Origin: an uncultured Eubacteriales bacterium
Lineage (GTDB): Bacteria; Bacillota; Clostridia; Oscillospirales; Oscillospiraceae
NCBI GenBank assembly: GCA_949293985.1
Contig: CASFFN010000011.1
Span: 1-35,787 of the forward strand
Direction: 5' to 3'
Length of the DNA stretch: 35,787 bases
Under the pieces are notes generated by a model. That model ran no database searches and had not been told where the DNA came from. It was given only the letters and a program-made list of their open reading frames with translations. Every line of letters starts with the position of its first letter. Positions within the stretch are counted from its first letter, which is position 1. This document shows, piece after piece, positions 24,818-35,641 of the stretch. A program made the position numbers and the translations under genes.

Positions 24818-24850
24818 GAGTTTGGACTATGGGTGTATCAGGCTATGATA

Positions 24851-27373
24851 TTATACATAGTTCAGGGTGCCGCCCTGGCTGCTTACATGCTCAGCCCACT
24901 CAGCGTCGGTGTAGTTGTAAGTCATCAGCTCCAGACCGCCGAAACCATACATAATGTTGTAGTCGGGGGTGTAGTAGGAGCACTGATAGGACAGCATCTC
25001 ACATGCAGTGGTGGAAGCCAGGGGAATCCGGTAGTAGAACTTCAGATAGTTCTCTTCCAGATCGGCCAGTACCTGCAGCTTGGTCTCGAAGGACTCGTTA
25101 GCCAGGTCACCGGAGCCGATCATGCAGTTGCTCCACTCCTGCCAGGTCTTGGTCATCTCCTCACCGTTGACGGTCAGGGTCAGAGTCTCGGTAGTGGGAT
25201 CCCAGCAGCCGGCCTCGTTGATTTCGTACTGATCGGGATCGCAGTAAACCTGCAGGTTACGGAAGGGATAGAAGGCAGCGCCGCCCCATGCGCCGTAGCC
25301 GATAGCGTACTCGCCCTTGGCCACATCGCCGTAACGGTCAGTCAGGTTGCCAACAGCCTCGAAGGTCACAGTGCCGAAGCCGGAGCCTTCCAGAGCAGCG
25401 TTGACGTACTGGTTCAGCAGAGCCAGCTGCTGGTTGTCAGCAGAGGTCAGAGCGCCGAATGCCCAGCCGATACGGATGTAGATGGGTTCGCCCTCGGTGT
25501 ACAGACCAGCCTCAACCAGCTCCTGGCAAGCCTGCTTCATCAGGTTCTGAGCCTCGGTCAGGTTGTAGCCGTTGATGGACTTGTAAGCATCCTCCAGAGT
25601 AGCGTAGGGAGTGCCCTCGCCGTACTCAACACCGTACAGGTTGCAGATAGCCTGCATAGCGGGCTCGGAGTTCCGGTAGGAGGAGGTGGGGTCGTTGTAC
25701 ACGTCGTAGTAGTACAGCTTGTTCAGCAGGGAGTAAGCGGGGGTGTAGCCAGCGGTAGCAGCCACGTAGTTGCTGCGGTCGATGGCCAGGGACATAGCCT
25801 TACGGAAGTTGGCGTTGGACAGAACCACGGAGTTGGTGTTGCCCTTGCTCTCGTCCATGGTCTTCAGGTTCTCCAGACCGCAGTTGAAGAACAGGGACAT
25901 GGTGTAGGTCTCGTCAGCCTTGTACAGCTGCTCGGAGGTGGAGTAGGTGGGCAGATCGTCAGCGGTGGGGTTCCAGCTGGACAGCTCGCCCTTCAGGAAG
26001 GCCTGCTTGGCAGCATCGGGGTCCATCACGTCGATAACAATCTTGGTGGTCTGGTACTTCTGCACATTCTCGCCGTCCACTTCGTAGTCGGTGAAAGCGT
26101 ACAGGTAGCCGGACTCGGTCTTCTCGTACTCGTAGTAGTTCTCGTTCTGGGTCAGAACCATCTGCTTGCCGGGCTGCCAGGACTCGATCTTGTAGGGACC
26201 GTAAGCCATGTAGGTATCCACGGAGGTACCGTAGTTGGTGGTAACCAGGGCGCCGGTGGTGTCCTTGCCAGCCTCGTACAGGTCCTCGTAAACCAGCCAA
26301 TTGGAGGTGCAGGAGGTCAGGAAGTAGTTGTAGTCGATCTGGGTCTGGGTGACGTAACGGATGGTGTAGTCGTCCACCTTGTAGCAGCCGACGGTGCTGT
26401 CGTAGTCAGCCACCTCAGCCACTTCGCCGTTGTTCACGTACAGGGCTTCCTTCATGTAGTCAGCCAGCTGAGCCTCGTCGGTGATGCCGAACAGGCCGCT
26501 CAGCAGACCGTAAACCAGAGTCTTGACGGTCTCCAGGTTCTCAGCGGTAACCTTGGTGTAGCCGTAGGGGTTGGCCTCATCGGTCAGAGCAGCAACAGCG
26601 TCGTCAAAGCCCATGCCGTAGTCGCTGTTCAGAGAAGCCAGGCTTGCGTTGTACAGGGTCATGTCGGTAGCGGTCATGCTGATGTAAACGCTGCCGGACT
26701 CGATGCCTGCCTCCAGGTCGTAGGAGTAGTCAGGAGTCTCGCCCTCGCCGTAGGGAGCAACCATGGGGGTGTAGATGGGAGCGCCGGAGTTGTAGTAGGT
26801 GTTGCCACCGGCTACAGCGGACTCACCAGCGTAGTACAGGTTAGCACGGTAGTTCCGCATATCGGGATCCAGCAGAGCCTTCATGGAGTAGATGTAGGTG
26901 TCGGCATTGATGGGGGTGCCGTCCTGCCACTTCATGTTGGGGTTCAGCTTGATTTCGAACACGAAGCCCTTCTCGGTCTCCTCAGCAGCCTGACCCTCGG
27001 GCAGGGTAACTGCGTACTTGGTCAGGTCATCCTGATGGTCAGCAGTCACGTCCTCAACGGACTCGGCTGCCAGGAAGACCCACTGGTATACGCCGTTGAG
27101 AGAATCGGAGATGCTCATGGTAGCCAAGGGGGTCTCGGTGTAAGCCATGACAGCACTGTCCGAATTCACCTCCCAGGTGTGGGCGTTCAGATTGGTGGCC
27201 AGACCGGTGGTAGAAGTGTGGTAGGTGTAGTCACCTTCCGTAACAACAGAGCCCTCGCCTTCCGTACCGGTGGGGGTGGAAGGAGTGGAGTCCGTGTTGG
27301 AAGGTTCCTTGCTGCAGGCGGCCATGGAAGCCAGCATGGCCAGAGCCAGCAGCAGCGCCAAGAACTTTTTCAT
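24851..27373 (-). CDS. oppA: Oligopeptide-binding lipoprotein, OppA-like, enlarged
   Basis: The extracellular solute-binding protein of the peptide importer, 840 residues against 500-600 for most relatives. A lipoprotein signal peptide (MKKFLALLLALAMLASMAAC) ends in a lipobox Cys, followed by a Ser/Thr/Pro-rich linker. Family-5 blocks include FEIKLNPNMKWQDGTPINAD, MAYGPYKIESWQPGKQMVLT and the VLSNANFRKAMSLAIDRSNY segment. Extra sequence is spread through the middle, including the tyrosine-rich region near 160-340. ATG 27373 was chosen because GGAGG sits 8 nt upstream; an ATG five codons earlier lacks a site. It is the first gene of the operon. Codon choice is strongly biased, consistent with high expression. 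Confidence 0.93.
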   Translation of the reverse strand: MKKFLALLLALAMLASMAACSKEPSNTDSTPSTPTGTEGEGSVVTEGDYTYHTSTTGLATNLNAHTWEVNSDSAVMAYTETPLATMSISDSLNGVYQWVFLAAESVEDVTADHQDDLTKYAVTLPEGQAAEETEKGFVFEIKLNPNMKWQDGTPINADTYIYSMKALLDPDMRNYRANLYYAGESAVAGGNTYYNSGAPIYTPMVAPYGEGETPDYSYDLEAGIESGSVYISMTATDMTLYNASLASLNSDYGMGFDDAVAALTDEANPYGYTKVTAENLETVKTLVYGLLSGLFGITDEAQLADYMKEALYVNNGEVAEVADYDSTVGCYKVDDYTIRYVTQTQIDYNYFLTSCTSNWLVYEDLYEAGKDTTGALVTTNYGTSVDTYMAYGPYKIESWQPGKQMVLTQNENYYEYEKTESGYLYAFTDYEVDGENVQKYQTTKIVIDVMDPDAAKQAFLKGELSSWNPTADDLPTYSTSEQLYKADETYTMSLFFNCGLENLKTMDESKGNTNSVVLSNANFRKAMSLAIDRSNYVAATAGYTPAYSLLNKLYYYDVYNDPTSSYRNSEPAMQAICNLYGVEYGEGTPYATLEDAYKSINGYNLTEAQNLMKQACQELVEAGLYTEGEPIYIRIGWAFGALTSADNQQLALLNQYVNAALEGSGFGTVTFEAVGNLTDRYGDVAKGEYAIGYGAWGGAAFYPFRNLQVYCDPDQYEINEAGCWDPTTETLTLTVNGEEMTKTWQEWSNCMIGSGDLANESFETKLQVLADLEENYLKFYYRIPLASTTACEMLSYQCSYYTPDYNIMYGFGGLELMTYNYTDAEWAEHVSSQGGTLNYV

Positions 27374-27547
27374 TTTCTTTTCCTCCATTTTTCATAATAT
27401 ATACACAGCAGTTTATCTTTACGCTGTTGTATACCGGGGTAGAACCATGCAAAGGAGAATTGTCCGGGAAAACCGCTGTTTTCTTTTCCATTGTCCGCCA
27501 GTTGCATACATTTGGGACTTTTCAACAATTTCCTTTGATATTTTCAG

Positions 27548-29366: not shown

Positions 29367-29450
29367 ATGGGAAAAAAGAATTACACGCATGTGCAGGAAT
29401 TGTTGCCTGAAATCGAAGCTATGCTTGGATCGGGAAAAACACAGAGAGAA
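29367..29450 (+). pseudogene. IS3-type orfA, 5' part (interrupted)
   Basis: Twenty-eight codons, MGKKNYTHVQELLPEIEAML then GSGKTQRE, match the N-terminal helix-turn-helix of orfA proteins of IS3-family elements in Clostridia. The frame is cut at 29450 by the serine-recombinase element and, read on, meets a stop about eight codons later. The missing remainder resumes in frame at 35256. Confidence 0.8.
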
Positions 29451-29475
29451 TGCTCGGTGGTCGTAAAACAGTAAT
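29449..29475. other. Left attachment site with inverted arm
   Basis: The core AA (29449-29450) is preceded by orfA sequence GACACAGAGAG-like and followed by TGCTC and the 20-bp arm 29456-29475. The complementary arm lies at 35229-35248. In the excised circle the two arms would face each other about 12 bp apart around the AA. Confidence 0.75.
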
Positions 29476-29488
29476 ATTTGAATTTCTT

Positions 29489-29525
29489 GGAACAGGCATG
29501 ATTTCGGTCATGCCTGTTCCGCTTT
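29489..29525 (+). terminator. Hairpin terminator at the left end of the element
   Basis: GGAACAGGCATGA (29489-29501) and TCATGCCTGTTCC (29508-29520) form a perfect 13-bp stem followed by GCTTTTATC on the plus strand. It overlaps the last codons of the recombinase gene and would block rightward read-through from the host chromosome. Confidence 0.7.
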
Positions 29526-31250
29526 TATCAGTTCATCCACGGGAATGTAGCCAACGAGGTCATATTCGATATGTACCTTCTGCTTGCGCTTACCGCTGGA
29601 CTTGTCGGGTGCCTCCACATAAACCGCCTTTACGAGCTCTCTGAGGGCGTATGGCGTGAGTTCTGTGAGTGTGGTGTATCTGCGTACCCGCTGAATAAAC
29701 TGTTCGAGGTTTTCTATCTGTCTTTTCTGTACTTCGACTTCTTTTTGCAGATTTGTGATTTCAACTTTAAGCTGCGCCTGCTCGTCCTCATAGGTCTTGC
29801 TCATCATGGCAAAGCGTTCATCTCTCAAATTGCCCTTGGCGTTGTCCTCGTAGATTTTGATAAACAGGCGGTCAAGCTCCCCTATACGCTTTTCTGCCTG
29901 TGCCAGACGCTTCCTATATACCTTTATGGTTTCATCGCTTTTCAGACGGAGCTTTTGCTCCATTTCCACCCTAAAATGCGCTTCGTATTGGCTCACGAAA
30001 GAGATAACTTCTTTCATGTGTTTCCAGACCACATCCTCCAAAACGACGGCACGAATATAGTGTCCGCTGCACTTGTCCTTGTTGGCTCGGTGGGTGGAGC
30101 AGATGAAAAAGTCCTGCCGTTTTTCAAAGTAATTAGTGGTGGAGTAATAGAGTTTCTGTCTGCAATCGGCGCAGAACACCAATCCCGAAAACGGACTGCT
30201 CTTGCCCGTTGCCGTTCTCCTGTGTCGCTGCTGACGAATTTCCTGTACCTTGTCAAAGACTTCCTGTTTGATAATCGCAGGATGGGTGTTGTAGAAAATC
30301 TTTTGATTTTCTTCGGGATTCTCCCTCTGCTTCTTATCCCAAATGGAATTGGTGTAGGTTTTGAAATTGACAGTAGCACCGATGTACTCTTTGCGTTCAA
30401 GAATATTGACGATGGTGCTTTCGTGCCAGCGATAAGGATTCTCCGGCTCGGTGTGCGGTGTCTTTACGCCTTGCTTAGTTTTGTATGCGGTGGGCGTGAG
30501 TATCTTTTCCCGTTCAAGCTGTTCTGCGATTTGGCTCGTTCCACGTCCGTTCATGCAGAGCGTGAAAATCTTTTTGACTACCTGTGCCGCTTCTTCGTCG
30601 ATGATCCACTTGGTTTTGTCCTCTGGATCTTTGCGATAGCCATACGGCACATGGACGGTCAATCTCTCGCCACGTTCGCCTTTTGCCTTTTGCACAGCAC
30701 GAATTTTGCGGCTCGTGTCCTTTGCAAAAAATTCGTTGAACCAGTTCTTTATACCGGCAATGTCGCTGTCAGTGCTGTTGGGATTGATACTGTCAAAGTG
30801 GTCGTTGATGGCAATGTAACGAACATCATTCTGTGGGAAAGTGTAGTTGATGTACAAGCCTGTCAGCGAGGAATTTCGTCCAAGTCTTGAAAGGTCTTTC
30901 GTGATAACTGTGCCAACATTTCCCGCTTCAATCTCCGCAAGCATTTTCTGAAAGCCTGGGCGGTTAGCAAAGTCCACACCACTGTAACCGTCGTCGATGA
31001 AAAACGTCGGGTGGGGGAAGCGGTGGTCTCGTGCATATTGAAGCAGAATGGCTTTTTGATTCTGGATAGAGTTCGACAAATCTTCCTTGCCGTTCTTCTT
31101 ATCCTCTTTGGTGTCCTCGACGGACAATCTGCAATAAAGTGCTGTGATTCTATCTGTTGCCCTTAACATTTCGTTATCCTCCTTCGGTTGGGCAACTGTC
31201 TGTACAGGATTGGATTCTTGGATTATATCAAAAGAGGTGTCGTTGTTCAT
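29508..31250 (-). CDS. Large serine recombinase (TnpX-like)
   Basis: This 580-residue site-specific recombinase catalyses excision and insertion of the element. The N-terminal resolvase domain has TALYCRLS with nucleophile Ser43, then SIQNQ, DDGYSGVDFANRPGFQ and KDLSRLGRN. A recombinase domain follows (VPYGYRKDPEDK). The zinc ribbon shows CADC and a later CSTH-x-C-type pair. A long coiled coil (about 430-530) and a C-terminal DUF4368-like region (QKVHIEYDLVGYIPVDEL) complete it. The ATG overlaps the stop of the TnpW-like gene (ATGA). The gene ends 57 bp from the left element end, as expected for the integrase of its own element. All catalytic motifs look intact, so it may be active. Confidence 0.95.
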   Translation of the reverse strand: MNNDTSFDIIQESNPVQTVAQPKEDNEMLRATDRITALYCRLSVEDTKEDKKNGKEDLSNSIQNQKAILLQYARDHRFPHPTFFIDDGYSGVDFANRPGFQKMLAEIEAGNVGTVITKDLSRLGRNSSLTGLYINYTFPQNDVRYIAINDHFDSINPNSTDSDIAGIKNWFNEFFAKDTSRKIRAVQKAKGERGERLTVHVPYGYRKDPEDKTKWIIDEEAAQVVKKIFTLCMNGRGTSQIAEQLEREKILTPTAYKTKQGVKTPHTEPENPYRWHESTIVNILERKEYIGATVNFKTYTNSIWDKKQRENPEENQKIFYNTHPAIIKQEVFDKVQEIRQQRHRRTATGKSSPFSGLVFCADCRQKLYYSTTNYFEKRQDFFICSTHRANKDKCSGHYIRAVVLEDVVWKHMKEVISFVSQYEAHFRVEMEQKLRLKSDETIKVYRKRLAQAEKRIGELDRLFIKIYEDNAKGNLRDERFAMMSKTYEDEQAQLKVEITNLQKEVEVQKRQIENLEQFIQRVRRYTTLTELTPYALRELVKAVYVEAPDKSSGKRKQKVHIEYDLVGYIPVDELIKAEQA

Positions 31251-31639
31251 TCGCCATCCTCCGTGATACCTAATTCATCATCGGCAACGTTCTGCTCCAT
31301 AATGCGGTGGAGCTTCTTATCGAGAGTTTCCGTACCCTCATAGCTGCCTGTAACTGTGTATTCTGTGCCGCCGATCTCGTCCACGATTTTTACATCGGGC
31401 AACCAAAAGGCAGACAAATTCTTGACAACGATGTTGCCCTTTTCATCGAAAGTAAACTCACGCTTGGGGGCATCATCGGGGCGAGGCTCGACCTTGGCAT
31501 ACGGGTCGGGATTAGAGAAATAGTATTCGGGAATTTCCTCGTCATACTCGCCGCTTGCAAGCTGTTCCTCAAACACAAGCTCGTCAATTTCGTCGGCGGT
31601 GAGTTCGAGGATTTCTTCCTCTTTGCGTTTTTCATCCAT
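31247..31639 (-). CDS. TnpW-like transposon-encoded protein
   Basis: A 130-residue acidic protein. The N terminus is almost all Glu/Asp/Lys (EEEILELTADEIDELVFEEQ). The C terminus carries IGGTEYTVTGSYEGTETLDK, matching my memory of the small TnpW family found beside serine recombinases. Its function is unknown; a modulator of recombination is an inference from the constant pairing. AAGGAGG lies upstream of the ATG, and its stop overlaps the recombinase start, so the two are translationally coupled. Confidence 0.65.
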   Translation of the reverse strand: MDEKRKEEEILELTADEIDELVFEEQLASGEYDEEIPEYYFSNPDPYAKVEPRPDDAPKREFTFDEKGNIVVKNLSAFWLPDVKIVDEIGGTEYTVTGSYEGTETLDKKLHRIMEQNVADDELGITEDGE

Positions 31640-31660
31640 GATGTCGAACCTCCTTTTCTT

Positions 31661-32113
31661 TCATTCGCTTCGATTCGTTTCTTTCAAACGACAGTTCAAT
31701 TCATAAAGTGCAGTACGATTTGAATCCCATTTGAGTTTTTGATTCGCTTCTTCGTAGGTCAACCAAACACACTCGGTATGCTCGTGAGATAACTGTATAT
31801 CTTCTTTGCACTCAAAACCAAAAGTGTACTCGGGAATAACATGGGTGTCCTTGTTCCAATGCTGACGGCGCTTTTCAGATATGATTGTAACAGGGATATA
31901 AGACAGGCTTTTCAGCTCAATCCACTTGTCAGCCTGCACTCCGCCTTCCTCGACAGTTTCTCTTTTTGCCGCTTCCAATGGCGTTTCATTATCTTCGCCA
32001 CCTCCGGCTATAAACTGCCATTGGTCATGATCGGCACGGTGAAACACACAGTATCTCGGAGAGCCATCAATAATCTGATATGGTATTGCAAGTATTTGGA
32101 AAGGCGCTCGCAT
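31661..32113 (-). CDS. Nudix hydrolase
   Basis: A 150-residue Nudix protein that would hydrolyse a nucleoside diphosphate linked to another group. The Nudix box is complete: GGGEDNETPLEAAKRETVEE then GG (G-x5-E-x7-RE-x2-EE-x-G). The FQILAIPYQI start and YCVFHRADHDQWQFIAGGGE resemble dihydroneopterin triphosphatase or pyrophosphohydrolase types; the substrate is unknown. ATG 32113 was chosen with AAGGAGG 8 nt upstream. It lies between mobC and the tnpW-like gene, 21 nt from the latter, as cargo or as a housekeeping passenger. Confidence 0.88.
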   Translation of the reverse strand: MRAPFQILAIPYQIIDGSPRYCVFHRADHDQWQFIAGGGEDNETPLEAAKRETVEEGGVQADKWIELKSLSYIPVTIISEKRRQHWNKDTHVIPEYTFGFECKEDIQLSHEHTECVWLTYEEANQKLKWDSNRTALYELNCRLKETNRSE

Positions 32114-32545
32114 TATATAATCCTCCTTGGTACAAACATCTTCTCGGGATAGCAAAACAGCCGAACACTGTCAATGGTCAAGATGAACGGCTTCGCCGCC
32201 ATTGACAGCATCCGTCCGTTTTGCTTTTGGGCAGACAAGGCGGCGGTTGCCGCCGATTTCCATTTAGAAAATGGCACTTGCTATCATGGGGAAACGTAGA
32301 ATAGCAAGCACAGCAGGTGTATGTACACTCTGCAATTTCAGACTTGGCAAGCAGGGCACGGCGGTACCCACTTTGCATACTTGCCATTATGTTAAAAACA
32401 TACTTGGCAAGCAATGCACGTGTGGACACACATCGTGCTTTTTGCAAATTTCAGCGTTGCTGCCTTTTGCAAAAACTTGTTGGGCAACATCCCAAACCCT
32501 TCAACGATTTTTTCAAAATCGGCTACGCTCCTGCGGAGCTGAACT
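32114..32545. other. Gene-free region with repeats, candidate oriT
   Basis: This 432-bp stretch downstream of mobC shows several repeats. There is a perfect 10-bp hairpin, CTGTCAATGG/CCATTGACAG (32168-32177, 32199-32208). Two direct copies of ACTTGGCAAGCA..GCACG lie exactly 60 bp apart (32342-32360 and 32402-32420, 17 of 19 identical). GTGTATGTACAC lies at 32317-32328. Such repeats next to a mobC gene fit a transfer origin. A frame here (32178-32447, minus) lacks a ribosome binding site and looks spurious. Confidence 0.45.
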
Positions 32546-32893
32546 TCACTTTATCTTGGAAAGTGAAGTAAGGATTTTTCGGATTCCTTCATAAATTTCT
32601 TCTTGGTTCTTTTTGATTTCTTCAATGTCTGCTTCGTAGATATTGCCGGTGGAATTGACACGCTTGGCAATTTGGTTTTCGCTGTTGGAGATACTTTTCA
32701 TCTTGAGAGTCAGCTCACGAAGCTCGGGCATATCCAGTTTTACAATGTACCCGTCGATTACCATTTTGCGGATATAGGCACTCATGTTTTCAATGCCTGC
32801 CAGCTCCATTTTCTTTTTTATCAGAGCTTGCTCTTTTTCATCTACAAAAAACTTTACCTGTATTGGTCGCTTACGATTTCTGTTATCTGGCAT
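32546..32893 (-). CDS. mobC: MobC-like relaxosome protein
   Basis: A 115-residue protein opening with a basic RKRPIQVKFFVDEKEQALI stretch followed by ENMSAYIRKMVIDGYIVKLD. This is the ribbon-helix-helix pattern of MobC-family proteins, which help a relaxase nick at oriT. The C-terminal half is helical (EIKKNQEEIYEGIRKILTSL). The start follows the DUF3795 stop directly, with GAGAGG upstream. In related elements a relaxase gene follows mobC; here only a gene-free, repeat-bearing stretch follows, so transfer would need a relaxase in trans. Confidence 0.82.
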   Translation of the reverse strand: MPDNRNRKRPIQVKFFVDEKEQALIKKKMELAGIENMSAYIRKMVIDGYIVKLDMPELRELTLKMKSISNSENQIAKRVNSTGNIYEADIEEIKKNQEEIYEGIRKILTSLSKIK

Positions 32894-33151
32894 TTACCCG
32901 TTCCTCTCACTTTCCTTTTTCCACGCAAGCCAGTCCCTATCAAGCACGGTGGAGTGTGGCTTGGTCATAATCGTATCACACGGAAAGCTCTTGCACTCAC
33001 CGCAGAAATTCAGTTTCTTTTCTTTCACGCAATCACGGGTGAAGCAATCTCCCGTAGTGTGTTCTTCCTCACAACCACGGCAACCGCCTTTTATGTATGT
33101 AGAGCAAGCACCGCAGTAAAAACCGCATTTGCCAAGCAACTTTTCATCCAT
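32894..33151 (-). CDS. DUF3795-type cysteine-rich protein
   Basis: An 85-residue protein with nine cysteines in the pattern CGFYCGAC, CRGC, DCFTRDC and FCGEC. This matches the small DUF3795 family, thought from its cysteines to bind metal; no function is established. ATG 33151 was chosen with GGGAG upstream and overlaps the stop of the SnoaL-like gene by 8 nt. It is part of the tight leftward cargo operon and directly precedes mobC. Confidence 0.8.
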   Translation of the reverse strand: MDEKLLGKCGFYCGACSTYIKGGCRGCEEEHTTGDCFTRDCVKEKKLNFCGECKSFPCDTIMTKPHSTVLDRDWLAWKKESERNG

Positions 33152-33515
33152 TGATCTTTCTCCCAATCTTCATATCTTGCCGCCATTTTGGAGCTTCTCC
33201 ATCGTCTGCCCAATACTCATCCATTGCGACGATCTTATCGTCTTTCAACTTGATGAAGGACGTAACGTGGAAAGAAGCGGAGCGATCCTTCGGGTATACC
33301 CGTGTTGCGGTGATAATCATATCGTCCGTCGTGACGATCTTTTCAACCTCGCCATCCCAATCGCCGGGATATTCACAGTTGGCTCTTATAAATTCCTCGA
33401 CCGTGAAATGCTCGTTGGAGCAATGCCAATTCACATAAGCATTGGCGTGGAAATATTTTCTTATCTCGTCTGCTCTCTGTGCGAGAACGTCAGACCAAAA
33501 CTGTTTTATGTTCAT
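33144..33515 (-). CDS. SnoaL/NTF2-like protein
   Basis: A 123-residue protein with the cone-fold pattern of the SnoaL/NTF2 superfamily. It has an N-terminal helix (NIKQFWSDVLAQRADEIRKY), then FHANAYVNWHCSNEHFTVEE and a C-terminal strand set ending SFIKLKDDKIVAMDEYWADD. Family members include isomerases, ring-opening enzymes and proteins that simply bind small ligands, so the role is open. It lies 12 nt after the membrane-protein gene in the cargo operon. Confidence 0.8.
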   Translation of the reverse strand: MNIKQFWSDVLAQRADEIRKYFHANAYVNWHCSNEHFTVEEFIRANCEYPGDWDGEVEKIVTTDDMIITATRVYPKDRSASFHVTSFIKLKDDKIVAMDEYWADDGEAPKWRQDMKIGRKING

Positions 33516-33527
33516 TATCTTTCGTCC

Positions 33528-33950
33528 TTAACAAAATATTGAAAGTGCAACCAAGACCAAATCAGTCGCAATAAGTAAATGTAACACAATATGGTAAAGA
33601 TCTGGGATAAGTCGTGTTTCGCTTATTGGGAACAGCTTAACAGTTCCCTCAAAGCATTCATTGTATCCCTTCAATTTCCGATCACTGACGCCGAAGATTG
33701 TAAAGTATTCGTGGCTGAAGAATTGTGCGACGAGCCACAAAGTAAGTTCAACCAAGAGAATCCACTTGCCTACCGGCTCCCATAAGAGAAAGCCTACGAT
33801 ACCGATGGTAAATAAAACAAGTACCGTGAACTCAATGCTTTTCAAACCCATTCCTTCGACCAGCAGCACTTTACCGAATTTCCATGTGAAGGTACAACCA
33901 AGAAACCAAAGCCAAAGCAAGCACGATATAACAATGATAGCAATTCTCAT
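33528..33950 (-). CDS. Hypothetical four-helix membrane protein
   Basis: A 140-residue protein with hydrophobic segments at about 3-20, 38-56, 62-80 and 118-138, and no motif that I recognise. A soluble stretch (FGVSDRKLKGYNECFEGTVK) separates segments 3 and 4. Its ATG overlaps the stop of the acetyltransferase gene (ATGA), which places it firmly in the cargo operon. The function is unknown. Confidence 0.75.
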   Translation of the reverse strand: MRIAIIVISCLLWLWFLGCTFTWKFGKVLLVEGMGLKSIEFTVLVLFTIGIVGFLLWEPVGKWILLVELTLWLVAQFFSHEYFTIFGVSDRKLKGYNECFEGTVKLFPISETRLIPDLYHIVLHLLIATDLVLVALSIFC

Positions 33951-34516
33951 TGGTGTTTCTCCAATCTGAACGTCAATCCATCATATTGCCCATCAACCTC
34001 TCGTGTACCTACGTTGCGGTTACACTCCACAAAGCCGAGCTTTTCGGCACAGCGAATCATCCTGGTGTTGCCAGACCATGTCTGTGTGTACAGTTCGGTT
34101 GCACCGGTCTCAAAATGGTAGTTAATAAAGGCACGGAGAACATTGGCACCAATACCCTTGCCCCAAAGGTTTGGTTCGCAAATGTCAATACCGATGGCAC
34201 GATAGACGGTCTGACCGTCCTTGATTTTCCCAACCCATTCGTAGTTCTCGTCAATGCAGTAGGAGCTTACCCAGCCAATGTGTCTGCCGTTCCATTCAAT
34301 CTCAAACTTACAACGGCGAGCATCATCGGGCCGATCTTTTACAGATTCATAGTATTCCGTCCAGCTTTTGCGCTCAGTTTCTTCGTCGGTGTCCTCCTTC
34401 TCCCAAGGAGCATCCCAGTTTTCCCATTCACGCTCCACTGTAAACCAACGCACATAATCCTCAATGTCGGACTCTATCATATCCCGAAGGATGATGTTTT
34501 CATATTTAATCCTCAT
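33947..34516 (-). CDS. GNAT family N-acetyltransferase
   Basis: A 189-residue acetyltransferase of the RimJ/RimL-like GNAT group. The N terminus is IILRDMIESDIEDYVRWFT, and the acetyl-CoA loop region reads NLWGKGIGANVLRAFINYHF, with ELYTQTWSGNTRMIRCAEKL and GFVECNRN after it. A protein N terminus, aminoglycoside or other amine could be the acceptor. ATG 34516 was chosen with AAGGAG 6 nt upstream. It follows the DUF6061 gene by 17 nt. Confidence 0.87.
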   Translation of the reverse strand: MRIKYENIILRDMIESDIEDYVRWFTVEREWENWDAPWEKEDTDEETERKSWTEYYESVKDRPDDARRCKFEIEWNGRHIGWVSSYCIDENYEWVGKIKDGQTVYRAIGIDICEPNLWGKGIGANVLRAFINYHFETGATELYTQTWSGNTRMIRCAEKLGFVECNRNVGTREVDGQYDGLTFRLEKHQ

Positions 34517-34533
34517 AGTTAACTCCTTCAAGT

Positions 34534-34779
34534 TTAATCCAAAGGCTTGTACTCTGTAACTGATTTGAGATACGCCTCCGGGGCGCCGTTCAAAACGAGG
34601 TCGGCATATGCCAGAGGGTCATTGTAAATAAGATAGTCAAGCTCAGACCGCTGATACATATTGTCAGCGACTTCGTTTTCCACGGCGGTGCAGTTAATGG
34701 CAATCATACTGCCATCGTCGAATTTCAGCTCCACGCATCCGCTATCCATATTGAACGCACAAGACAATAATTTTTTCAT
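34534..34779 (-). CDS. DUF6061-type small protein
   Basis: An 81-residue protein, KKLLSCAFNMDSGCVELKFD, followed by DGSMIAINCTAVENEVADN and ending YLKSVTEYKPLD. I recognise it as the small family often annotated DUF6061 in Firmicutes mobile elements; the function is unknown. ATG 34779 was chosen with GGAGGT 7 nt upstream. It is the first gene of the leftward cargo operon, directly behind the palindrome-overlapped promoter. Confidence 0.75.
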   Translation of the reverse strand: MKKLLSCAFNMDSGCVELKFDDGSMIAINCTAVENEVADNMYQRSELDYLIYNDPLAYADLVLNGAPEAYLKSVTEYKPLD

Positions 34780-34801
34780 CTGCCTTACCTCCATTCATAC
34801 C

Positions 34802-34844
34802 TGTGTGTACACACATTATAACACGAAGATGTGGCATTTTTCAA
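34802..34844 (-). promoter_or_regulatory. Cargo-operon promoter with 14-bp palindromic operator candidate
   Basis: On the minus strand TTGAAA (34839-34844) and a consensus TATAAT (34815-34820) are 18 bp apart. The perfect palindrome TGTGTGTACACACA (34802-34815) begins at the -10 and covers the likely start site, an ideal position for a repressor. No regulator gene that I recognise lies in the element. Confidence 0.75.
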
Positions 34845-35228
34845 TAGATGCACCGAAATTTATCGCATTAAAGTGTAACTTTTCTATGAACCAAGGGCAA
34901 TGGAGCAATTTTTGCGGCGTTTGACGTACTCTGCATCGAAACATACCACTATCAACTTAACGGCTTGGTGGGTCTATTCACGAAACCACAAATATTCGCA
35001 CTTCTCAACGAACGGGGTTCATTATGGCGTGATTCGCTGTTTCGTATGGTTTTTACCACGAAAACGGCAACTATTTCACCCGTTTCACTATCCTTGCTAT
35101 ACAGGGCATAAAAACAAGGTTTTTCGCCCCAGAAACAAACAACGGCACTCAGCCGAAGCTGAATGCCGTATGTTCGTTTGTTTTCCAACCCTGTAAGACA
35201 GATGCCGTAAAATAGTAATTTTTTAAGA
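34845..35228. other. Gene-free right end of the element
   Basis: This stretch of nearly 400 bp has no convincing gene. It contains a long hairpin at 35133-35184 and, near the end, GTAAGACAG (35192-35200) inverted to CTGTCTTAC (35233-35241). The latter repeats part of the element's end arm and may be an accessory recombinase site. A 99-codon leftward frame starting in the end arm lacks a ribosome binding site. Confidence 0.5.
35133..35184. repeat. Long imperfect hairpin near the right end
   Basis: AAACAAAC then ACGGCA then TCAG pair with CTGA then TGCCGT then GTTTGTTT across short mismatches. On the plus strand TTTTCC follows, so it may act as a terminator shielding the element from the right, mirroring the hairpin at its left end. 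Confidence 0.55.
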
Positions 35229-35255
35229 ATTACTGTCTTACGAGCACCCATCTAA
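35229..35255. other. Right attachment site with inverted arm
   Basis: The 20-bp arm (35229-35248) is followed by CATCT and the core AA (35254-35255), after which orfA resumes. The arm is the inverted counterpart of 29456-29475. Confidence 0.75.
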
Positions 35256-35486
35256 GTAGCGGAGTATTTTGGTTTTCGGGATAAGTATGTCGTAAAAAGC
35301 CTTGTGAAACGGGAACGTGCCAAACAACGGAAGCAAGAAGCCGGGATCACGATACGGCCCAAAGGACGGCCGAGAAAAGCTGCTTCGCCAAGGGACATTG
35401 TTGCAGAGCAGGCTTACGAGATTCGGCGGCTGCGCATGGAGAATGAATTGCTGCGGGATTTTCTGCGATCCACAGGAAGGAAGTGA
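35256..35486 (+). pseudogene. IS3-type orfA, 3' part
   Basis: Seventy-six codons continue the interrupted orfA: VAEYFGFRDKYVVKSLVKRE, then KGRPRKAASPRDIVAEQAYE and a terminal leucine-zipper-like IRRLRMENELLRDFLRSTGRK. With the 28 codons at 29367-29450 this gives a normal 104-residue orfA. There is no start codon of its own with a ribosome binding site. Confidence 0.82.
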
Positions 35487-35641
35487 GAGCAAAGGCAAAG
35501 TATGCGGTGATTTACCGCCGCAAACCGGCTACCTTCTCGGAAGCCAACGAGATGATTGACCGCCATATCCACTTTTACAACCATGAGCGCATCCAAAGCA
35601 AAACAGGAGTGCCGCCCCTCTCGCCGCGCCACTCCTGCTAA
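35483..35641 (+). pseudogene. IS3-type orfB remnant with internal deletion
   Basis: A GTG-started frame overlaps the orfA stop, as orfB does in this IS type. The first 12 codons (VRAKAKYAVIYR) match an orfB N terminus. They run directly into a C-terminal tail, PATFSEANEMIDRHIHFYNH then ERIQSKTG, ending at residue 52. The DDE catalytic core (about 200 residues) is missing, with the frame kept. The IS cannot move on its own. Confidence 0.72.

Follow-up and report, generated by a model that had tools for sequence, protein, structure and literature searches.

We analysed a stretch of 35,787 nucleotides from an uncultured Eubacteriales bacterium of the Oscillospiraceae (GCA_949293985.1, contig CASFFN010000011.1, positions 1-35,787, forward strand; hereafter the window), in which a 5.8-kb element carrying cargo genes and a large serine recombinase interrupts the orfA of an IS3-type insertion sequence (IS), with both ends known to the base. 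Comparison with related elements suggests, with a probability that we put at roughly 0.7, that this recombinase joins a fixed attachment site on the element (attP) to target sites (attB) with a matching core dinucleotide and an A-tract about 10-19 bp to each side, most of these sites being intrinsic terminators. Read from sequence, the case consists of both ends, equal cores, conserved arms, two-sided A-tracts and, in most relatives, flanks that rebuild a hairpin. By the same comparison, the orfA of the window is an off-pattern, stemless target in a group whose general rule is insertion at terminator-like sites.

Element ends and the interrupted orfA

The ends could be resolved to the base because the homology of two close relatives stops there and because orfA relatives cross the junction. 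The elements at L032 and L051 (L and G numbers label the loci and genomes compared, G000 being the genome of the window) carry recombinases 98% identical to that of the window and are both inserted elsewhere; their blast homology to the window starts exactly at 29449 and stops exactly at 35255, both AA dinucleotides included. Uninterrupted relatives of the IS in G124 (L132 and L152) align across the junction for 281 bp, gap-free, at 75% identity, and another in G129 (L133) crosses it at 72% with its gaps located elsewhere. A preliminary description of this DNA had placed a serine-recombinase element in an orfA with an AA core and ends given to the base, had read the two orfA halves as one frame once the insert is removed together with one AA, and had proposed a search for uninterrupted orfA; the homology limits, the joined frame and the G124 and G129 relatives agree with it on each count. 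The IS copy is itself a deletion derivative. It lacks about 695 bp that G129 has between orfA and the orfB 3' end, so that the start of orfB is joined to its last ~40 codons in a 52-codon fusion (Table 1); the intact orfB of L132 encodes an IS3-family transposase.

The inverted arms of the element match at 18 of 20 positions, as had been described, and this is above chance because the best match among 300 pairs of randomly chosen positions in the element, on the same offset grid, was 15/20. Their position had been given as just inside the AA at each end; they sit 5 bp in from it, and the 20 bases that directly adjoin the AA match at 15/20 only.

Conserved ends, variable cores

Scanning species genomes with an alignment of eight recombinases confirmed 526 stretches, of which the best 80 were kept; these loci, the window, L032 and L033 form a set of 83 elements. 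An arm lies beside the recombinase 3' end in all 83. Further arm copies beside related recombinases had been proposed as something to look for, and related elements ending elsewhere as the case that would count against the preliminary description; what these relatives show is conserved ends in differing targets. Twenty-nine elements, the window included, have a right arm matching at 16/20 or better together with enough flank, the right end being picked by the arm alone, and the 54 elements without a located right end were excluded from all two-ended counts.

The core dinucleotide is identical at both ends in 28 of these 29 elements, compared with 34% in a mispaired control. Tn4451 is reported to have a GA core, and the AA of the window had been presented as a distinction from it; among the 29 relatives this difference loses its significance, as their cores read AA in 15, TT in nine, GA in three, TA in one and TG in one, with GA cores used by recombinases 88-96% identical to that of the window (L052, L053 and L074). 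The GA-core recombinases of L053, L074 and L062 are close to AA users, and the base beside the core differs as well (TAAT in the predicted attP of L055, CGAA in that of L074). At L052 (4281-6776; recombinase 96% identical), the right part of the element is found beyond the left end and points the opposite way, the cores being unequal (GA and TG, reading inward), which implies either two insertions or a rearrangement, and this locus was left out of the 29. The 29 flank pairs are all mutually different, as expected of multi-targeting recombinases, whose close relatives enter many unrelated sites.

Target sites carry A-tracts and mostly rebuild hairpins

At least four A in five positions, 10-19 bp from the core, were taken as an A-tract. 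Of the left flanks, 73 of 81 have one, as do 28 of 29 right flanks, compared with a one-sided frequency of 402/5000 (8%) at random host positions; both flanks have one in 28/29 two-ended elements, among them the window. In left flanks, the eight positions 11-18 outward of the core are A in 60-78% of cases, and C/G follows. The 16-bp attB predicted earlier is too short, because the target is conserved at a distance of 10-19 bp from the core.

When the two flanks are joined with a single core, most yield a hairpin with the core near the loop, GC-rich arms and A/T edges. Pairing was scored at 12 positions centered on the core, a measure adopted in place of a whole-fold pairing measure that proved too permissive, with 346/1000 random positions passing. 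A centered stem of at least 10 of 12 pairs is present in 20/29 rebuilt sites, compared with 59/812 mispaired flanks and 27/5000 random host positions. Folding energies give the same picture, with a mean of -22.3 kcal/mol for rebuilt sites and -12.1 kcal/mol for mispaired ones (0 of 20,000 permutations equally low), and 19/29 rebuilt sites fold better than at least 95% of their own mispairings.

The pattern recurred in a replication set of 11 loci, four previously in the set and seven new. An order-wide search gave a strong match in 15/394 genomes, that of the window included, and a class-wide search added one further genome; in all three new elements with both ends, the cores are equal and the joined flanks form hairpins (11, 12 and 11 of 12 pairs).

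Gene context and empty sites

The target sites look like true terminators. In a Pfam-based check of 10 hand-picked sites, nine have Pfam-supported gene or tRNA ends facing them within 100 bp: ribosomal protein S20 at 33 bp (L051), seryl-tRNA synthetase and cupin at 27 and 30 bp (L105), PrsW and ArsP at 31 and 27 bp (L109), and further a glutaminase (L083), an S11 peptidase (L074), an FAD reductase (L055), DUF896 (L069), an ABC ATPase (L100) and tRNA-Ala (L127); at L080 no supported end lies within that distance. Cruder gene calls, possible for the 26 of 29 sites with enough flank, placed 17 sites between genes and nine in an open reading frame (ORF). The ORFs running across the junction at L074, L083 and L109 were rejected as spurious because genes with Pfam support end next to the site. 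Of the 17 intergenic sites, 15 are faced by one gene end or more and 10 by two, while two are faced only by gene starts.

An intact counterpart of a split site could be read in one case. The L038 flank matches repeats and tRNA-linked sequence in 101/101 genomes, and in the genome of L118, which holds the same element, an intact terminator paralogue shares 15 bp (CAGCCGTTTGGCTGG) with the rebuilt empty site, upstream of which lies a tRNA-Gly gene. For the L032 flank, the single other genome of its genus gave no match. At L050, the flank at the recombinase end recurs as an intact stem (AAAAGAGAGGAAGCGG..CCGCTTCCTCTTTTT) about 9 kb upstream of the recombinase; this stem may be an unsplit paralogue of the target site.

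Terminator-like hairpins at the element ends

The element also carries hairpins of its own. The two longest terminator-like stems in the window region are those at its two ends, each reading inward (Table 1). Across relatives, an inward terminator-like hairpin lies within 160 bp of the right end in 25/29 elements, and left ends have one inward in 29/83 and outward in 0/83, against 77/2000 random segments. We infer that these inward hairpins may replace the host terminator that insertion splits.

Proposed mechanism

These observations can be accommodated by a mechanism in which the circular form of the element, through an attP made of the arms around CATCT-AA-TGCTC, would recombine with a duplex attB whose two half-sites, inverted relative to each other, each consist of a GC-rich spacer and an A-tract. 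The enzyme would read double-stranded DNA with one subunit per half-site, the A-tracts probably serving as its main contacts. Terminators would be used since they supply two such half-sites, insertions would be tolerated since the sites lie between genes, and the inward end hairpins would stand in for the terminator that was split. The core is separated from the A-run by 15-18 bp in the attP arm and by mostly 11-18 bp in attB; a published model of a Listeria integrase (PMC3783163) places the zinc domain 5 bp closer to the crossover on attB, which the offset seen here would loosely fit.

More broadly, and less firmly, we favor the view that a clade of DUF4368 recombinases uses intrinsic terminators as its general attB, reading paired A-tract/GC-rich half-sites and landing between genes in any Firmicutes host with inward replacement terminators at both ends, as a DNA-recombinase counterpart of group IIC introns. 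Group IIC introns likewise insert at intrinsic terminators; they do so by RNA-based retrohoming downstream of the stem with an unrelated enzyme, whereas the recombinases considered here would cut DNA near the loop.

More distant recombinases bear on how far this generalization reaches. Among 25 of them, one without upstream sequence, only L184 (45% identical) exceeded its null, with a stem match of 16/18 against 14 and a second arm at 18/20, so that both arms and a split stem are present there. L044 (51% identical) has a stem match of 14/18, not above its null, and adjacent arm and flank matches, and probably has two arms and a split stem. Because most other distant recombinases gave no resolved ends, terminator use beyond about 60% identity is only suggested; searches of plasmid (462) and phage (364) records returned only relatives below 60%. 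Not every DUF4368 group targets terminators, because the left flanks of L186 and L197 have a single coding sequence in common, similar to MKQLMAGxGVA when translated, with no stem or T-run. These two belong with L196, L029 and L031 to a DUF4368 group with recombinases 41-42% identical to that of the window, which judging from the shared flank seems to be specific for one gene; it resembles the window element in domain family and layout and differs from the window's relatives in having a coding target in place of stem and T-run.

Weighing the alternatives

A number of observations weigh against terminator targeting through paired A-tracts. No right end was located in 54 of the 83 elements and no usable one in four of the seven new loci, the left flanks in G837 and G701 lack an A-tract, and L107, one of the 29 two-ended elements, has unequal cores. 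Nine of the 29 sites, the window included, fall under the 10-of-12 stem threshold; on the looser whole-fold measure real sites (25/29) stand out less from random ones. The hairpins at right ends also read outward in 20/29. Of the 100 host positions that best match a sequence-only weight matrix, 32 form a stem, compared with 20/29 real sites (Fisher p 5e-4). Because real sites exceed sequence-matched ones in stems, tracts alone may not explain the preference, and hairpin reading or the loss of intragenic insertions may add to it; because as many as 32 of the 100 matches form a stem, the sequence pattern by itself points to terminator-like hairpins. Finally, multi-targeting integrases needing only a TT core have been described (PMC13137831, published text).

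That excess of stems at real sites is also what would be expected if the recombinase read the hairpin itself, as a cruciform or single-stranded stem, with A-tracts merely accompanying terminators. Integron integrases do recognize attC in folded hairpin form. We nonetheless regard this as unlikely: A-tracts are steadier than stems (28/29 against 20/29), large serine recombinases are described in the text of PMC3783163 as binding double-stranded half-sites, and tract recognition fits better because the window site has both tracts (Table 1) and no stem.

It is less probable again that the targets are other inverted repeats with A/T edges, such as attenuators or repeat families, rather than functional terminators. 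Terminator function is predicted here from sequence, and the two sites faced only by gene starts in the crude calls would suit such repeats, but nine of the 10 picked sites show a GC-rich stem followed by a T-run no more than 100 bp from where a supported gene or a tRNA ends. Slightly lower still do we rate near-random insertion with terminators being merely where insertions survive, genes being intolerant. Many sites do lie just past gene ends, and multi-targeting relatives can be very promiscuous (PMC13137831, published text). Survival alone is disfavored because it predicts intergenic sites and not the A-tract register, which is fixed relative to the core in most left flanks, nor would it place the core at the stem center. 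As for spread on a repeated orfA, the element travelling with that IS, which the preliminary description had proposed, the junction is clean and uninterrupted relatives exist, several of them in G124, but we consider it very improbable, as the genome of the window matches each orfA half only once, L032 and L051, the closest relatives, lie in terminators, none of the other flanks inspected in detail is this orfA, and no second insertion in this orfA occurs among the 83 left flanks.

Relation to known systems

Cp36, a DUF4368 multi-targeting enzyme of Clostridium perfringens, recognizes an A-rich 5' region, an AA core and a T-rich 3' region (Durrant et al. 2022, PMC10083194), and its clade shares with the group studied here the DUF4368 domain, many unrelated targets and this A-rich/AA/T-rich motif. 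In the main text of that paper, supplements being outside our scope, the motif is derived both from human-cell sites and from attB sites classed by the gene they disrupt, and terminators are not mentioned. What the present comparison adds is the mutual pairing of the two flanks in bacteria and their position beyond gene ends, by which intrinsic terminators would be the natural target class. TnpX of Tn4451 and Tn4453 and the TndX-type recombinases likewise have low target specificity (PMC5704250), and the passages of that source consulted here mention no terminators as targets. The window element resembles TnpX/TndX systems in its catalytic domain, 2-bp core, low target specificity and the carriage of a mobilization gene. 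Our literature search, with supplements and subscription papers outside its scope, returned no report of serine-recombinase insertion into terminators.

Multi-targeting serine recombinases have so far been described as relaxed and AT-rich in their specificity. If the reading proposed here is correct, terminator targeting would explain how such elements enter many hosts and sites without breaking genes, and would provide a rule for locating element ends in genomes and forecasting new insertion positions. For genome engineering, in which such enzymes have already found use, terminators would then be predictable, gene-neutral landing sites in bacteria. The window copy is useful as an exception, as it separates tract reading from hairpin reading.

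Recombinase and cargo

The recombinase frame is open over 580 codons and encodes Resolvase, Recombinase, zinc ribbon and DUF4368 domains in one protein, all above Pfam cut-offs, and its best solved-structure match, by sequence over the catalytic domain, is TnpX (2mhc, E 7.5e-30); the preliminary description had called it apparently intact and TnpX-like, and these results bear that out. S43 in ALYCRLS, which we take to be the catalytic nucleophile, is invariant in eight relatives and aligned with ALYERLS of TnpX 2mhc. On this evidence the protein is a DUF4368, TnpX-like large serine recombinase.

Table 1. Coordinates of the element, its target and its genes in the window
Feature	Position	Strand	Basis
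IS orfA 5' part (target)	29367..29450	+	Frame joining; uninterrupted relatives
Target A-tract, 10-14 bp outside left core	29435..29439	+	Sequence; window positive on both sides in A-tract test
Core dinucleotide AA, left copy (attL)	29449..29450	.	Sequence; homology limits
Inserted element, 5803 bp excluding the core dinucleotides	29451..35253	.	Limits of L032/L051 homology (29449, 35255); gap-free orfA relatives
Left arm, predicted attP half-site, GGTGGTCGTAAAACAGTAAT	29456..29475	+	18/20 vs right arm; same position kept in relatives
Terminator-like hairpin, inward from left end (15 pairs, then CTTTTATC)	29488..29530	+	Hairpin scan; stem 29488-29521
Large serine recombinase, 580 aa, DUF4368/TnpX-like	29508..31250	-	Pfam Resolvase, Recombinase, Zn_ribbon_recom, DUF4368; TnpX 2mhc
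130-aa ORF adjoining recombinase, no family found	31247..31639	-	ORF list, family scans
NUDIX hydrolase, cargo	31661..32155	-	Family scan
NikA/MobC-like mobilization accessory protein	32546..32893	-	Family scan
DUF3795 protein, cargo	32894..33166	-	Family scan
SnoaL-like protein, cargo	33144..33515	-	Family scan
140-aa ORF, no family found	33528..33950	-	ORF list, family scans
GNAT acetyltransferase, cargo	33947..34531	-	Family scan
DUF6061 protein, cargo	34534..34794	-	Family scan
Terminator-like hairpin, inward from right end (12 pairs, then TGTTTGTTTC)	35133..35169	-	Hairpin scan; stem 35169-35142
Right arm, predicted attP half-site, GGTGCTCGTAAGACAGTAAT	35229..35248	-	18/20 vs left arm; kept in relatives
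Core dinucleotide AA, right copy (attR)	35254..35255	.	Sequence; homology limits
IS orfA 3' part (target)	35256..35486	+	Frame joining; uninterrupted relatives
Target T-tracts (TTTT, GG, TTTT), 12-21 bp outside right core	35267..35276	+	Sequence; A-tract test
orfB remnant, start fused to C-terminal end (IS3-type)	35483..35641	+	ORF list; comparison with G129; intact relative L132 orfB

The nine element ORFs scanned include no relaxase, only the NikA/MobC-like accessory protein. In this the element differs from Tn4451-type integrative mobilizable elements, to which an own relaxase belongs, as it does in a core that varies among close relatives (GA in 3/29) where GA is reported for Tn4451. We do not call the GNAT protein a resistance gene because its best AAC(6') resistance model scored 37.8 bits, far under the cut-off of 340. 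A second DUF4368-type recombinase, 46-47% identical and broken by one internal stop, lies elsewhere in the same genome (G000, contig C31:19148-20763). Outside the element, window positions 24833-27397 hold two overlapping frames of about 850 codons each on opposite strands. The minus-strand frame resembles a solute-binding protein, and its plus-strand counterpart is probably open by chance.

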